64,000 bases of DNA from Chitinophagaceae bacterium (GCA_004173355.1 SEAD01000005.1:1-64000); one strand, 5' to 3'; counted from the stretch's first letter, positions 15,475 through 22,313 are shown. A program made the numbers and translations. The notes: generated from the sequence alone by a model not told the origin.

Positions 15475-16038
15475 TCAGTTGACTACCACATTAAAAGTGG
15501 CTTCCACGTCCGTGCCCGACTTTGCGCTGTCGACCTGGTCGTCAGCAGCTTTGTTGGGAGGGTCGGCCGGGTAATGACGGAGTGTAATTACCACCTGGCC
15601 GGTGCCCGCCGCACCTGTTGTCCATGTACTCGTAGTTCCCAGCGCAATGCCATTGCTGTCGTTGTTGAGGTTACTCACCGTCAGGTTGCCTGCGGCAGTC
15701 GGACGGTAATAAAACCGGTGTGCATGGCTCTCTTCTTCGACCTCAAGTGTGATATCTTCCACCGGTGTGGCTGTCTCGTTGAGCAGCTGGATACTTGCTG
15801 AATAGGTAGTATTCGGGGAGAGATCGATATCATCGGTCACAGGCGAAGCACCACCGGGGCCATCGGGATCGGTAAACTCATAGACTAATGGTGTGGTGGA
15901 ACCAGCGGCCGTGAGACGGACAATCATTGTCGTGATCACTTCTTCTTCATTGGTTTCACCCTTGTCTTTTTTACAACCGGCGAAAACCGTGGCCAGTACG
16001 ATACATGCGAGGCTTGTCTTCAGGAGGTTTTTTTTCAT
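15475..16038 (-). CDS. Lipoprotein of the TonB receptor locus
   Basis: The product (187 residues from this start) has a lipoprotein signal with lipobox FAGC (Cys about residue 22) followed by KKDKGE. The mature part is a beta-rich domain with a repeated Thr/Ala-rich pattern, one HAHRFYYRP segment containing two His, and no Cys after the lipobox. I recognise it only as a recurrent Bacteroidota lipoprotein seen beside TonB receptors. It follows the receptor gene by 96 nt and is likely co-transcribed. A start three codons upstream (16047) is possible. It might bind the receptor's ligand (inference). Confidence 0.75.
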   Translation of the reverse strand: MKKNLLKTSLACIVLATVFAGCKKDKGETNEEEVITTMIVRLTAAGSTTPLVYEFTDPDGPGGASPVTDDIDLSPNTTYSASIQLLNETATPVEDITLEVEEESHAHRFYYRPTAAGNLTVSNLNNDSNGIALGTTSTWTTGAAGTGQVVITLRHYPADPPNKAADDQVDSAKSGTDVEATFNVVVN

Positions 16039-16134
16039 GTCTCTCATTTAAAGATTAAAAGAATTAAGAATAACGTGCTGTTGCAGCAGGTCTGTAAAGT
16101 GATGCGCCAGTGGCATCATGTGTGGTTGTGATTG

Positions 16135-18498
16135 TTACTTCCCTTCAAGTGGCACCCTGATCCGGAAGCTGATATTACGTCCCATGGCATCAGCGAAATA
16201 CCGCATGGCATCCATGTAATCGCGGTATGACCGGTCAAACAGGTTACGTACACCCACGGAAAAACTTACCGGTGTATTTCCAAAACCAATGGTAGTGGAT
16301 GCATTCAGGTTTACCAGTGCATACCCATCGGGCGCGGCTTTGTAATCCTGCGGTCCGTTTTTATCACCGGGCACACGGGTCTGCCGGAATACCTGCTGGA
16401 TTTCACCGGACAGGTATGTGTCCGTCATCCTGCCCTTCACCGGCAGGCGATACAGGACCTCTGTGCTGATCCTGTCTGATGGCATCAGGATAAGCCAGTC
16501 GTCGAGTTGCCGGTTCCGGGCGCGAAGGATCGATGCCCGGGAGGTCCACTCGATATCCTTCATCGGCTTGACGAGCACAGAGGCATCCATGCCCGTCAGT
16601 GTGGCATCGGCCTGCCGGTATTCGGTGCGCCGGAATGCACCGGCTATCGTGAGCACCGGTTCATCGGGGACCGGTTGCTGGTAGATGAAATCATTGATCC
16701 GGTTGTGGTAAAAGTCAAGATCCACTACCAGTGTACCTTTCCGGTTATGGTAACCTGTGCTGATACCCGTGTTGAATGCCTGCTCGGCCTTGAAGTTGAT
16801 ATCACCTATCTCAAAAGTGGCAGTACCATGATGGATCCCGTAAATCAGCAGTTCATTCACATACGGGGCGCGGGTGGAAAGGGACAGGTTCAGGTTTACT
16901 TTCCAGCGTTCTGAAATCCGGTATCCCGTATTGAATGAAGCGGCATACGTGGAGAAATCAAAACTGTTCTGCGCAAATGTTGTATCTGCGCCCTGCAACA
17001 TCCTGTCGGTACTGATGGTTTTGTAATCATACCTCAATCCGGCCTGCAGCTCCCAGGCATGCCGCTCCCATTTCTCAATGGCATAGGCGCCGTATGTATA
17101 CGCGCGGTAATTCGGGATCAGGTAACGTCCGGCATAAGCATTATCCTGCTGCATGGCGGCCAGGCCAACCACACCACTGAAACCATGCTGTGGTTTGTGT
17201 TCCCAGTTCAGGTCTTCCGAAAAAGTGGAAATGCTGAGATTCAGTTGCGGGCGTGTATTCGAACTGGACCTCGTCACGTCGTACTCTTTCCGGTTATTGA
17301 ACTGACCTGCGATCTGGAAATTCAGCTTCCCTTTCGGCAGAAGCCATTGCGACTTTGACTTGAGCAGCTGGTGGGTTACATCCTGGTACGGGCGACCGAT
17401 CCGGTAGGTATCCTGGCCCAGGTAAACTTCGTCAGGCCTGTCGGCAGCTATCGCTTTTTCCAGGTCGGCGAAATTGCCGATATGTGAGCCGATAAAAATC
17501 CCGGCCTGTGTTGAAAACAGGCTGTAGAATAATTCGGTAGTAAAGTGTTGCTTTTTCCAGGCAAGTGTAACCGAGAAATTTTTTTCCTCGCTGCCGGTAT
17601 TGTTTAACCGGTAATCCGGTGTGGCCGCATTGGCGCCTTTTTTATAGGTGCCCTGCAGGCGGTAGGTGAATGCCGGTAGTTTTTTCAGCTGCTGCTCATA
17701 GATGGCCGACAGGTAGTACTGACGGTTATTGGTAAAATAACCGGTGTTTACTTCGAGGTTGTATCCGGGTCTGGAACGCAGTGGTCTTGGCTGGATCAGC
17801 ATCACACCACCAATGGCATCGGATCCATACCGAAGCTCATCCACGCCCTTGATCACTGTCAGCTTATCCGCTATGAAAGGATCTATTTCCGGCGCATGTT
17901 CATTTCCCCATTGCTGTCCTTCCTGCCTCACGCCATTATTGATGGTTAGTATGCGTGAGCTATGCAACCCATGGATCACCGGTTTGGCAATATTGGTTCC
18001 CATCTGCAACATGGTCACCCCGTTGATTTTGCTGAGCGCTTCCGCCAGCGAAAGACCTTTCGTTTCTTCCAGCCTCCGACCGGACAGGTCCTGTTTGAAA
18101 CCACTGGATGCCATACCGGTACGGCCGGCCACCACTACCTCTCCCAGTGTGTTGAGCGCATGCGGCAGGAAATAATCGGCATGACGGTCGCGGGTAATCG
18201 TAACCGCCTGTTCCAGCGGCGCGCAGTCAACATGGGTAATCAGCAGCGTATACTGCCCGGCGCAAACGCCGGCGAATACAAAATCACCCTTGTCATCGGT
18301 AATGATCTGCTGGCTCAGTCCGGAAAGGGAAACCGTGGCACCCACCAGTTTCTCCTTTGTGTCGGCATCTTCAACGTGACCGGAAAAACGGATCCTGCAG
18401 CTGTCCCCAATCATCGGATCGGTAGCGGGCAACAGGCTATCCTGCGAAAAAACTACACCTGCTGAAAACATCAGCAAGGCGGTAACAAAATATTTCAT
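16135..18498 (-). CDS. TonB-dependent receptor, possible metal (zinc-like) uptake
   Basis: The 787-residue protein has a signal peptide (MKYFVTALLMFSAGVVFSQ), an N-terminal carboxypeptidase-regulatory-like domain (about 35-115), a plug (about 120-235) and a 22-strand-type barrel ending in an aromatic-rich strand. The plug has KPVIHGLHSSRILTINNGV and GNEHAPEIDPF, which resemble the RxxSPDHAxxxDP region I associate with ZnuD-type zinc receptors. There is no SusD partner, arguing against glycan uptake. Substrate remains a guess between zinc, copper and other small ligands. Upstream is a small secreted protein gene and downstream a lipoprotein gene, all on the same strand. Confidence 0.85.
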   Translation of the reverse strand: MKYFVTALLMFSAGVVFSQDSLLPATDPMIGDSCRIRFSGHVEDADTKEKLVGATVSLSGLSQQIITDDKGDFVFAGVCAGQYTLLITHVDCAPLEQAVTITRDRHADYFLPHALNTLGEVVVAGRTGMASSGFKQDLSGRRLEETKGLSLAEALSKINGVTMLQMGTNIAKPVIHGLHSSRILTINNGVRQEGQQWGNEHAPEIDPFIADKLTVIKGVDELRYGSDAIGGVMLIQPRPLRSRPGYNLEVNTGYFTNNRQYYLSAIYEQQLKKLPAFTYRLQGTYKKGANAATPDYRLNNTGSEEKNFSVTLAWKKQHFTTELFYSLFSTQAGIFIGSHIGNFADLEKAIAADRPDEVYLGQDTYRIGRPYQDVTHQLLKSKSQWLLPKGKLNFQIAGQFNNRKEYDVTRSSSNTRPQLNLSISTFSEDLNWEHKPQHGFSGVVGLAAMQQDNAYAGRYLIPNYRAYTYGAYAIEKWERHAWELQAGLRYDYKTISTDRMLQGADTTFAQNSFDFSTYAASFNTGYRISERWKVNLNLSLSTRAPYVNELLIYGIHHGTATFEIGDINFKAEQAFNTGISTGYHNRKGTLVVDLDFYHNRINDFIYQQPVPDEPVLTIAGAFRRTEYRQADATLTGMDASVLVKPMKDIEWTSRASILRARNRQLDDWLILMPSDRISTEVLYRLPVKGRMTDTYLSGEIQQVFRQTRVPGDKNGPQDYKAAPDGYALVNLNASTTIGFGNTPVSFSVGVRNLFDRSYRDYMDAMRYFADAMGRNISFRIRVPLEGK

Positions 18499-18552
18499 GG
18501 AAATACATTAGCTGGTAAACACATACCCGGACAGGACCGGGCAAAACGGATA

Positions 18553-18903
18553 TCAGGCTAATGCGGGCGGTCCGCGGAGATTGCTGTGCAATACAACCGT
18601 ACACGCAACGGACTCATGGAAGAATGATACTGCGTTGTCAAGGTAAACGACTGCAGGCGCTATTTCCCGGGTTTCCACCGGGATGAACGGGGATTCAGCT
18701 ACCTGGTCGTGGAAATCACATACATACTTTGAGGGCTGGAGGTCGATCGTGGCTTCGCTGTGATTTTTCGCAGGTACATGCACGTGGTTCGTCAGCAGGT
18801 CATGCAGGATCTGTTTTGGTGTAATGCCAAGGCAGAACACCAGCAGCAGGAAACCTGCGAGGAAGGATCGTATGTAAGTTGTTTGCCTCAAACCTTTTTT
18901 CAA
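18553..18903 (-). CDS. Small secreted or membrane-anchored protein with His/Cys residues
   Basis: The 116-residue product starts at a TTG (18903), as no ATG lies before its hydrophobic signal segment (FLAGFLLLVFCLGITP). Residues LLTNHVHVPAKNHSE and VCDFHDQ carry His and Cys that could bind metal, and the protein ends LRGPPALA. I recall similar short proteins with an ITPKQILH block and RGPP tail in Bacteroidota, but no assigned function. It is the first gene of the receptor locus, 54 nt upstream of the receptor. Confidence 0.65.
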   Translation of the reverse strand: MKKGLRQTTYIRSFLAGFLLLVFCLGITPKQILHDLLTNHVHVPAKNHSEATIDLQPSKYVCDFHDQVAESPFIPVETREIAPAVVYLDNAVSFFHESVACTVVLHSNLRGPPALA

Positions 18904-18941
18904 CGAGGTTGCAAATTAGTGCTTTTTATCGATTCACAAAA

Positions 18942-18968
18942 AAAACCCCGGCGAAGGCCCGGGGTTTT
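18942..18968 (-). terminator. Intrinsic terminator after the DUF1501 gene
   Basis: Arms AAAACCCCG (18942-18950) and CGGGGTTTT (18960-18968); on the minus strand the stem is followed by a T-run. It separates the DUF1800-DUF1501 unit from the TonB locus. Confidence 0.8.
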
Positions 18969-19058: not shown

Positions 19059-20648
19059 TCAACGAACTTTCAGCATAGGTCTTACCTGCTGCTTGCGTCC
19101 GTTCTGCAATCTTGCATAATACACACCCGATGGCAATCCACCACTGTCAAACGTGAACGTAAATGTGCCTGCCGTACGGAGTTCCGCATCCACGGGCGTT
19201 TTGATTACGCGGCCAAGCATATCGATGATCTGTACCAGTGTATGCCCGCCAATGGTGGTATAACTGATCGTAGTGGTGCTCGTAAACGGATTGGGATAGT
19301 TGGCAATGAGGTTGAGACCGGCATTGCCGTTATCCGGATCCTGTACACCGGTGCAGTCGTTGTCCTTTACGATTGCCAGGCTCTGGAAGTTCTCGAACAG
19401 CACCGTCTGCAATGTGGCGGCGGGAACACAGAACCATTTTTCAAGGATGGATGCATACACGCTCCGGAAATCATACTGGAATGGTATATTATCCTGTACC
19501 GATGCACCGCCCGGTATCGAAGGATTGGTGCCGGTCACGCCAGGTATCGCCTGTGTGCCGAATATAAACATCGGGGCAGCGGCACCATGGTCGGTCCCCA
19601 TACTTGAATTCGATTTGATACGGCGGCCAAACTCGGAGAAGGTCAGACCCATTACGCGTTCGTCCACCTTCAGGAATTTGAGGTCATCCAGGAAAGCCTT
19701 GATGGCGTCCGAAAGGTTTTTCAGCAGCCGGGCATGTGTACCGATCGATGTATCTGCAGCATCGACCTGCTGTGAATGGTTATCAAAACCTCCCATGCCA
19801 ACCATGTAAATGCGGGTCTTGAGTCCACCTGCAACCAGGCGGGCGACAATCCTGAGCTGGTCAGCAAGCCAGTTGTCTTCCGGGTAGGCAGCCTGCTGTG
19901 GTACTTTTTCAGCAGCCGCAATAATCCGTTCTGCAAACAGGTTGGTCTGTTTGGCAATCGTACGGATATAGGTCAGTTCATGCCCCATCGGTGTATCCGG
20001 TGCCGGGTCAATCACATTGTTCAGGAGGTTATAGAAACTCGTCGGATTGGTAATACTCATTCCCATATTCATTGCCGGTCCCTGCAGGGTCAGCGATGTG
20101 ACCGAGCCGATCTGGATCGCCAGCGGATCGGGCATGGTCTGGTTGGGATAACCTTCCGGGTAGTTCGGGTATTCCGTGTTCAGGTACCGGCCGGCCCATC
20201 CGGTATTGACCACATCTGTGCTGGATGATCCGCTCATCCAGATATCGGTAGCACGGAAATGCGAGAAGTTGGGGGTGGGATACCCAACTGCCTGCACGAT
20301 ATTCAGTTTGTCTTCATTGTACAGTGCCTGCATACCGGTCATCGCAGGGTGCAGTCCGGTAGCTTCATAATCTTTCAGTTTAAGGATAGCAGTTTCGCGG
20401 ATCGCCACATTGCTGCGTGCATTGTAGTAGTCGCTGTAGGTCGACACCGGGATTACCATATTCAATCCATCGTTACCACCGCTGAGCTGCACGATCACCA
20501 GCACGTGATCGGTTTCAATCGCGGGATCCATCATTGCGCGCAGCAGCGGGGAATCACCATTGAATGCCTTCACGGCATAGCCATCCACGATGGCCGGGAA
20601 CACCGCGGCGGCGGGCACACTGCTTCTTAAAAAATCTCTTCTTCTCAT
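19059..20648 (-). CDS. DUF1501 protein with Tat-like signal and T9SS sorting domain
   Basis: The 529-residue protein begins MRRRDFLRSSVPAAAVFPA, a twin-arginine motif with a hydrophobic core. The DUF1501 (sulfatase-like fold) body includes VLVIVQLSGGNDGLNMVIP, FSHFRATDIW and MGTDHGAAAPMFIFG. The last ~80 residues start NYPNPFTSTTTISYT and end LPSGVYYARLQNGRKQQVRPM, a type A T9SS sorting domain. It would thus be exported by Tat and then moved to the surface by T9SS. It forms a two-gene unit with the DUF1800 gene 9 nt upstream. The biochemical function is unknown. Confidence 0.88.
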   Translation of the reverse strand: MRRRDFLRSSVPAAAVFPAIVDGYAVKAFNGDSPLLRAMMDPAIETDHVLVIVQLSGGNDGLNMVIPVSTYSDYYNARSNVAIRETAILKLKDYEATGLHPAMTGMQALYNEDKLNIVQAVGYPTPNFSHFRATDIWMSGSSSTDVVNTGWAGRYLNTEYPNYPEGYPNQTMPDPLAIQIGSVTSLTLQGPAMNMGMSITNPTSFYNLLNNVIDPAPDTPMGHELTYIRTIAKQTNLFAERIIAAAEKVPQQAAYPEDNWLADQLRIVARLVAGGLKTRIYMVGMGGFDNHSQQVDAADTSIGTHARLLKNLSDAIKAFLDDLKFLKVDERVMGLTFSEFGRRIKSNSSMGTDHGAAAPMFIFGTQAIPGVTGTNPSIPGGASVQDNIPFQYDFRSVYASILEKWFCVPAATLQTVLFENFQSLAIVKDNDCTGVQDPDNGNAGLNLIANYPNPFTSTTTISYTTIGGHTLVQIIDMLGRVIKTPVDAELRTAGTFTFTFDSGGLPSGVYYARLQNGRKQQVRPMLKVR

Positions 20649-20657
20649 ACGGTGGTT

Positions 20658-22313
20658 TTAGGATAATTGGTATTCGGATAGGTTCATGAGATACTGGTAC
20701 AGGGTCTTCAGCCGGTTGGAAATAATGGCCGTGGCTGTTTCATTGGACTCGTCCACGAGGTAACCATTCCAGGCATTGGTCCAGTAGTAATCCTGGGTCT
20801 GTCCGCTCAGCAGTATATTCTGTTTGATACTGAGTTTGGCGGCATCAGATAGCGGCACGCGGTAGATCACCGACAGCGCGTCTTCCACCAGTGCATTCGG
20901 GTCACCGGGATTGGGTAAAGTTTTTGTAAATGCGATCGTATCTATCTGCAGTGTTTTCATGTTGCGGGTAAAACCGTTCCACAGCATGATATCGGTAAAC
21001 TGGTTACGTTTGGGTAATGTATCGTGATTGATCCAGAGTTCGTGGAAGGACGGCTCCTGGTAATACGCCGGCCAGCCTGATACATCCGGCGGGTCGCCGA
21101 TATTCTGTCCCATGGATGTCTCCCAGTTGCGCAGGTAACTCCACATCATATACGTGTCTTCATACTCTGTAGCCACCGGTGGTATAACCACACCGAACTC
21201 GCGCATGCACCCGATCACATGGTCTACCGGACTTTTAATCAGGCAACCCTGGTTGAGTGTGTCAAAAAAATGTTCACTGCGGAGCAGGGTGTCGAGCACT
21301 GCATGGATATCATAGCCGGATGTCCGGAAAACAGCTGCAAGTGGTTCGATTACGTTTGTTTCCGCAGCTTCATCGATCTCGTAGTACACAAACCAGCGGT
21401 AGATGCAGCGGCAGATATATTTTGACGTCTCCTCTTTTGCAAACAGCATATCGATAAGGTCATCTGTCTCGAGCGCGCCATCGGCGCCGGTGCGGCCAGT
21501 CAGTATAGTCGCGTTAAAATAAGCGGAGAATGTTTTGTTACCGGTATCATGATTTGCCGGATCAAAATAAACAGTGCCATCGGCCGGGTTGATCCGCCAT
21601 CCGGTAAGTACCCGTGCCACGCGACGTACATCTTCCTCATTGTAAACAACGCTCGGACCTTTGCCGAGTGTGAACAGTTCCATCAGTTCGCGGCCGTAGT
21701 TTTCATCCGGTGCGGAAGCCGAGTTGAGGTAACCATTCAGGTAGATCAGCATACCCGGATCGATGGTTACATCTTTCACGAGTGTGCGGAAGTTGCCGAG
21801 ACAGTCACGACGCAGCAGGTCATTATGCTGGTAAACAAACTTTGAAATATTGATTGTATTGGTTTCTGTTCCGAAATGATCGGCCCAGAAAAGTGTCAGC
21901 TTTTCACGGATGCTGCGATCCTGGCTGAGCATGACGCCCGTCCACCATTTCTTGAACGATTCCCGGCGGGCATCATTGAGATCCTCATCCGCAGTCAGGT
22001 CATTGACCCATGTGGTCCCTGCCGGTACATTGGGATCCCCCATCTCTGAACTGTAATCATTCAGCGGTGGATCAGGCAATGCGGCCACGGGTGTAAGCAG
22101 TTCGTCCACCGCCTGGTTCATCGACAGTGATGTAAAGTGCAGGAGGTCTGCACGCGTTGATCCGAACATAGTACGTTTGAGGAGATGCTGCACTTCATTG
22201 CGGGTCCAGGCACCGGAATATACATTGAGCCCCGACTGGGTGCGGGCTCCCGCTGCGGGAAGTTCCACTTTACGTTTCTTCCGCTGGGCGGTCAGAAAGG
22301 CGCGTCTGTCCAT
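20658..22313 (-). CDS. DUF1800 protein
   Basis: This 551-residue protein has the DUF1800 pattern: HLLKRTMFG near the start, FWADHFGT, NYGRELMELFTLG, DVRRVARVLTGWR, and PPDVSGWPAYYQEP. It starts MDRRAFLTAQRKKRKV, an RR-x-F-L motif with no hydrophobic core behind it, so a normal Tat signal is lacking. It is paired with the DUF1501 gene, as seen in many Bacteroidota and Planctomycetes (established co-occurrence). It may be exported with its partner or act inside the cell. Function unknown. Confidence 0.88.
   Translation of the reverse strand: MDRRAFLTAQRKKRKVELPAAGARTQSGLNVYSGAWTRNEVQHLLKRTMFGSTRADLLHFTSLSMNQAVDELLTPVAALPDPPLNDYSSEMGDPNVPAGTTWVNDLTADEDLNDARRESFKKWWTGVMLSQDRSIREKLTLFWADHFGTETNTINISKFVYQHNDLLRRDCLGNFRTLVKDVTIDPGMLIYLNGYLNSASAPDENYGRELMELFTLGKGPSVVYNEEDVRRVARVLTGWRINPADGTVYFDPANHDTGNKTFSAYFNATILTGRTGADGALETDDLIDMLFAKEETSKYICRCIYRWFVYYEIDEAAETNVIEPLAAVFRTSGYDIHAVLDTLLRSEHFFDTLNQGCLIKSPVDHVIGCMREFGVVIPPVATEYEDTYMMWSYLRNWETSMGQNIGDPPDVSGWPAYYQEPSFHELWINHDTLPKRNQFTDIMLWNGFTRNMKTLQIDTIAFTKTLPNPGDPNALVEDALSVIYRVPLSDAAKLSIKQNILLSGQTQDYYWTNAWNGYLVDESNETATAIISNRLKTLYQYLMNLSEYQLS

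Follow-up and report, generated by a model that had tools for sequence, protein, structure and literature searches.

Three adjacent genes in a 64,000-nucleotide stretch of DNA from a Chitinophagaceae bacterium (GCA_004173355.1, SEAD01000005.1:1-64000; hereafter the window) probably form a zinc-scavenging transcription unit, consisting of a Zur-repressed outer-membrane zinc importer and two dedicated helper proteins. The evidence comes from sequence analysis and comprises the order of the genes and its conservation, a predicted receptor fold like that of ZnuD, three aligned zinc ligands, and a palindrome with its targets in relatives. Zinc is favoured because the receptor carries ZnuD-type ligands, because matches to zinc chaperones occur among the putative operator targets, and because AztD-like, Fur-family and MerC genes adjoin the locus in relatives. 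The first-pass annotation had proposed that the three genes may be a metal uptake system, and these comparisons support that reading.

Gene organization and limits of the locus

The three ORFs were found as first described, namely a TTG-started gene for a small protein (SMALL) with NHVHV and CDFH motifs, a gene for a TonB-dependent receptor containing GNEHAPEIDP, and a gene for a lipoprotein (LIPO) with an SHAHR motif. Reading of the window places them head to tail on the minus strand in the order SMALL, receptor, LIPO, with intergenic gaps of 54 bases (SMALL to receptor) and 87 bases (receptor to LIPO). The features of the locus are as follows.

15475..16047, minus strand: LIPO, a 190-aa lipoprotein, lipobox ending at C25
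16135..18498, minus strand: TonB-dependent receptor, 787 aa, ZnuD-like, with Plug and CarbopepD_reg_2 domains
18553..18903, minus strand: SMALL, 116 aa, TTG start
18898..18914, minus strand: palindrome TTGCAACCTCGTTGAAA, candidate Zur-type operator with the consensus TTGCAAC-N3-GTTGCAA, overlapping the TTG start of SMALL
18936..18964, minus strand: hairpin CCCCGGGCCTTCGCCGGGG followed by T's, from direct reading of the sequence

There is no ATG in the SMALL ORF, so TTG or another non-ATG start is required, and in many relatives the first start codon is likewise TTG. The hairpin is likely to be the terminator of the upstream DUF1501 unit and to mark the 5' border of the SMALL-receptor-LIPO transcription unit; a similar hairpin is found in a congener. 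The nearest genes encode DUF2721, DUF1501, DUF1800, ABC exporter and rhodanese proteins. SusD is absent from these nearest genes, in agreement with the initial description, and neither Rfam families nor tRNAs were found in the window. At 19059-22313 (minus strand) the DUF1501 protein, which has a type IX secretion tail, adjoins the DUF1800 protein; this pair is often found near the locus in relatives, apparently as inherited order.

The receptor and its predicted zinc site

The receptor has an N-terminal carboxypeptidase-regulatory domain and a Plug domain, the latter containing GNEHAPEIDP, and it resembles ZnuD of Neisseria meningitidis (PDB 4RDT, 4RDR, 4RVW) at the levels of sequence, profile and fold. 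ZnuD was the closest solved structure in a search with the single receptor sequence (E 4.8e-16), and a profile of the receptor family matched it at 2.6e-62, with PhuR as runner-up (4.9e-35). Foldseek with the AlphaFold2 model of the receptor (pLDDT 88.6) placed ZnuD first (E 1.6e-37), and VIA-align gave ZnuD a Z of 39.5 (rmsd 2.1 over 582 residues) compared with 37.1 for the best non-ZnuD entry. The copper receptor OprC of Pseudomonas aeruginosa has the same fold (Z 36.0) and ranked second with Foldseek. The window receptor differs from ZnuD in sharing only about 20 % identity with it, in its N-terminal carboxypeptidase-regulatory domain, in having two partner genes and in missing the His-rich extracellular loop 3; its score with the NCBIfam ZnuD model NF038289 (103 bits) is well under the cut-off of 950.

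Zinc is held in ZnuD by Asp99, His100, Glu340 and His499 (PMC4557270). Three of these four ligands have aligned counterparts in the window receptor, in the form of an acid-His dyad in the plug and a loop His, with Glu replacing Asp at E200. The relevant codons are listed here.

16831..16833, minus strand: codon of H556, aligned with ZnuD His499 (sequence and profile alignment)
17284..17286, minus strand: codon of the invariant E405, candidate counterpart of ZnuD Glu340, five columns off in the profile alignment
17896..17901, minus strand: codons of E200-H201 within GNEHAPEIDP, aligned with ZnuD Asp99-His100 (sequence and profile alignment)

E200, H201 and H556 are near-invariant in 58 receptors irrespective of receptor type, both types being included, and all of 175 receptors carry WGx[ED]H. 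The suggestion of a ZnuD-type receptor is upheld at the level of fold and ligands, and the residues originally singled out in all three proteins are conserved. His-rich extracellular loops were considered as further support for zinc and were discarded, a His-rich stretch being present in just 2 of 177 receptors, neither of them the receptor of the window. One receptor of a second class (type B, see below) carries a long His/Glu/Asp-rich insertion just after the E405 position, similar to the metal-capturing loop of ZnuD and rare family-wide.

Although the TonB-hemin model TIGR01785 gave the receptor its top NCBIfam score (139.5 bits, under the cut-off of 316.85), and although ZnuD itself was initially mistaken for a haem receptor (PMC4557270), a receptor for haem or a haem-protein is a very improbable reading. 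ZnuD surpassed three haem receptors of known structure, PhuR, ChuA and ShuA, by both profile and fold. PhuR, aligned in the same way as ZnuD, shows T-H at the plug position and is missing the loop His. None of the checked neighbours was a haem gene.

A palindrome at the start of SMALL

Metal uptake had been expected to go with a metal-box motif upstream of the locus, and a Fur/Zur-type palindrome was found there, with targets in relatives that include AztD- and ZigA-like genes. When all 5.36 Mb of the genome were scanned, 18898-18914 was the top match to TTGCAAC-N3-GTTGCAA. Chance alone would give about one match per genome with a single mismatch, and it is therefore the position of this site, right at the start of SMALL, that carries the weight. 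The palindrome is kept in the congener. Of 170 promoter regions of such loci, 49 contained TGCAAC-spacer-GTTGCA matched at 11 or more of its 12 positions, compared with 1.9 in dinucleotide shuffles; spacers of 1-6 were permitted, 3 being commonest by far. A matrix trained solely on other families served as a cross-validation in Chitinophagaceae, where 31 of the 57 loci scored 13 bits or more, compared with 0.42 in shuffles. The same matrix gave 19.6 bits at 18898-18914, with the next best site in the window at 9.5. Among 36 strong sites there are 10 at which the palindrome extends a TAnnTTTG promoter element, a placement such as a repressor site would have. We read TTGCAAC-N3-GTTGCAA as a candidate Zur-type operator.

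Targets of the palindrome in other genomes

The exact palindrome was detected in 37 of 147 genomes of the family, with none for the reversed control, and of the 30 exact sites that were read, 27 were promoter sites of MerC, of SCO1 or of both genes. Across 12 named genomes, a search allowing a single mismatch gave 65 sites compared with 8 for the control. Their targets comprised five AztD-like genes, ZigA-like genes, ZnuD-like receptors, SMALL, MerC, Fur-family and stand-alone LIPO genes; several other sites in these genomes were intragenic and may be due to chance. The AztD-like and ZigA-like targets both fall below curated cut-offs, with the two ZigA-like genes tested scoring about 530-550 bits against a cut-off of 600. 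TonB receptors and COG0523 chaperones are common in published Zur regulons (PMC6103462). Exact palindromes are scarce outside the nearer classes, with 15 of 296 genomes compared with 3 for the control, and the operator claim is therefore confined to those groups.

A single Fur-family gene is present in the genome that contains the window. It follows SCO1 on contig C54 and its promoter has a palindrome with two mismatches. On this contig (25000-33000) MerC and SCO1-Fur diverge from the palindrome, an arrangement shared by most of the exact palindromes in the family. In Fibrisoma limi and Larkinella sp. C7, LIPO occurs without an adjacent ZnuD-like receptor, and the palindrome separates it from a divergently oriented MerC gene. 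A gene for a thioredoxin-reductase-like FAD oxidoreductase was repeatedly seen behind the palindrome (five loci), and a heavy-metal P-type ATPase gene lies behind it on contig C23 of the window's genome (two mismatches) and in Cnuella takakiae (one mismatch).

SCO1 and the heavy-metal P-type ATPase share the operator, which makes copper the main alternative metal. The same architecture would then serve another transition metal, copper foremost, through an OprC-like importer and a regulon with SCO1 and the ATPase, and the second rank and close fold of OprC point in the same direction. This reading is nevertheless quite unlikely. At its conserved plug and loop positions the receptor has, like ZnuD, acidic residues and His; its aligned plug motif contains neither Cys nor Met, whereas the motif of OprC is of the Cys/Met type. 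The palindrome is, moreover, common to AztD- and ZigA-like genes. Fur-family regulators are known for iron, zinc, manganese, nickel, peroxide and haem but are not known for copper.

Conservation of the gene set across Bacteroidota

Co-occurrence of the three families, which a joint function in metal uptake would lead one to expect, was checked and recurs in relatives beyond chance, the SMALL-receptor-LIPO order being widespread in Bacteroidota. Relatives of LIPO were detected in 38 of 147 Chitinophagaceae genomes and in 72 of 296 genomes phylum-wide, a few of the latter as weak partial matches, and relatives of SMALL in 45 of the 147. Among 60 Chitinophagaceae loci, SMALL precedes the receptor in 37 and LIPO follows it in 30, with every other neighbour rarer, but these loci were picked via LIPO or SMALL and are biased in comparison with a set of 80 loci found in named genomes via the receptor alone (including Niastella, Cnuella, Chitinophaga, Pontibacter, Fluviicola, Dyadobacter, Hymenobacter, Mucilaginibacter, Runella and Emticicia). 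In the less biased set LIPO was near the receptor in about 65 of 80 loci, several of the remainder being truncated by contig ends. The type B receptors, which are about 27 % identical, keep SMALL and are without LIPO.

The DUF1501/DUF1800, ABC exporter and thiolase neighbours are likewise common within Chitinophagaceae, as they might be if the three genes too were adjacent through inherited order alone and had no joint function. That explanation is extremely improbable. The adjacency of receptor and LIPO has held across many families and classes while those other neighbours change, and the palindrome is found separately at SMALL, at the receptor and at stand-alone LIPO genes.

Neighbours of the locus in relatives include AztD-like, Fur-family and MerC genes. 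In Hymenobacter sp. YC55 a one-strand cluster consists of SMALL, receptor, an AztD-like gene, LIPO and two further receptors. An assignment of one neighbour cluster to zinc ABC transporters was dropped, as the member checked was LolD-like.

The two accompanying proteins

SMALL has one hydrophobic N-terminal segment and a C-terminal RGPP motif, and is probably membrane-anchored and facing the periplasm. H34 is conserved in 36 of 36 aligned sequences, and H40 and C62 in at least 90 %. No relative was found for SMALL in NCBIfam or among PDB sequences by single-sequence or profile searches. Proteins of the HYC_CC_PP family (NF047658) are also small, come from Bacteroidota and contain His, Cys and a PP motif, but membership of SMALL was rejected on the basis of no match to the model and no profile similarity; a separate, genuine HYC_CC_PP member is encoded on contig C318 of the same genome.

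Invariant residues of LIPO are E36, H110, D130, H158 and D180, a set that would be suited to a metal site, with H110 and H158 present in 32 of 32 sequences. The protein is confidently predicted to fold as an Ig-like beta-sandwich (pLDDT 91). Foldseek gave nothing below E 0.001, and the best structural match (Z 9.5) was a nuclear-pore chain, these being matches to a common fold only; weak PmoD and CopC rows in the fold searches were not counted as evidence. The LIPO profile had no match among PDB sequences, and LIPO none among curated families. A signal for export of lipoproteins to the surface, C-X-K-(D/E)2 after the lipid-bearing Cys, has been defined in another family (PMC5080379). LIPO has C-K-K-D-K at this point, with one acid in place of two, and K27 (+3) is invariant in 32 sequences. 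LIPO is probably located at the cell surface.

Pairing of a TonB receptor with a partner lipoprotein is known in Bacteroidota for HmuR/HmuY (PMC6613475), and BtuB1 is paired with the lipoprotein BtuG1 according to a PDB title. The window locus shares this plan with HmuR-HmuY and BtuB-BtuG, whereas LIPO, unlike the partners in those pairs, matches no curated family and has an unspecific Ig-like fold.

The receptor might also take up zinc as a chelate or bound to a protein, in place of free ions, LIPO being a haemophore-like extracellular partner that binds zinc. We regard this as a real though somewhat unlikely possibility. It is in keeping with the prediction of LIPO as a lipoprotein whose C-K-K-D start is akin to the surface-export signal (PMC5080379), and with invariant His and acidic residues in a protein that stays with the receptor. 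On the other hand, type B receptors occur without LIPO, the receptor site aligns with a ZnuD site that holds free zinc (PMC4557270), and metallophore synthesis genes were not noticed in the neighbourhoods read.

Proposed mechanism and relation to known zinc systems

For the zinc-scavenging unit favoured here, the following mechanism is proposed. Under zinc scarcity a Fur-family regulator, most likely the sole Fur-family protein of the genome acting as Zur, would leave the palindrome at 18898-18914 and SMALL, receptor and LIPO would be made. As in ZnuD, E200 and H201 of the plug and H556 of an extracellular loop would form a buried Zn(II) site, from which the receptor would pass the metal into the periplasm using TonB energy. 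LIPO, probably at the surface, may deliver zinc to the receptor or aid gating, while SMALL, probably on the periplasmic side, may receive or chaperone it. Counting against this reading are the low score with the ZnuD model, the higher score with the haem model, the non-aligning fourth ligand, the SCO1 and heavy-metal ATPase targets, the chance expectation for one-mismatch sites and the scarcity of exact palindromes in more distant groups.

More broadly, many Bacteroidota may share a Zur regulon with the operator TTGCAAC-N3-GTTGCAA, the core of which would be a three-part zinc system formed by a ZnuD-like receptor, a surface zinc-binding LIPO and a small RGPP relay, the last two belonging to families without a curated name; we consider the chances of this to be evenly balanced. 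No description of a Zur operator or of a dedicated outer-membrane zinc importer in Bacteroidota was found among the open-access papers that the literature search covered. If the proposal is true, the palindrome marks genes for zinc starvation in some of these bacteria, two unnamed protein families are tied to zinc, and zinc uptake can be tested in cultivated relatives such as Dyadobacter, Chitinophaga and Runella.

The Zur-regulated TonB receptors ZnuK and ZnuL of Caulobacter crescentus scavenge zinc and likewise have a Fur-family palindrome (PMC4176598). Their operator is of the GTTATA..TATAAC kind, in contrast to TTGCAAC-N3-GTTGCAA here, and the likeness considered is one of function and type of regulation.

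A second, type B-like set is present in the genome of the window, on contig C48 (1-9000). It encodes a small protein ending in GPPSLA and a ZnuD-like receptor, together with two lipoproteins, one of 332 aa and rich in His and the other a DUF4625 protein. A palindrome with two mismatches lies where the small gene starts.
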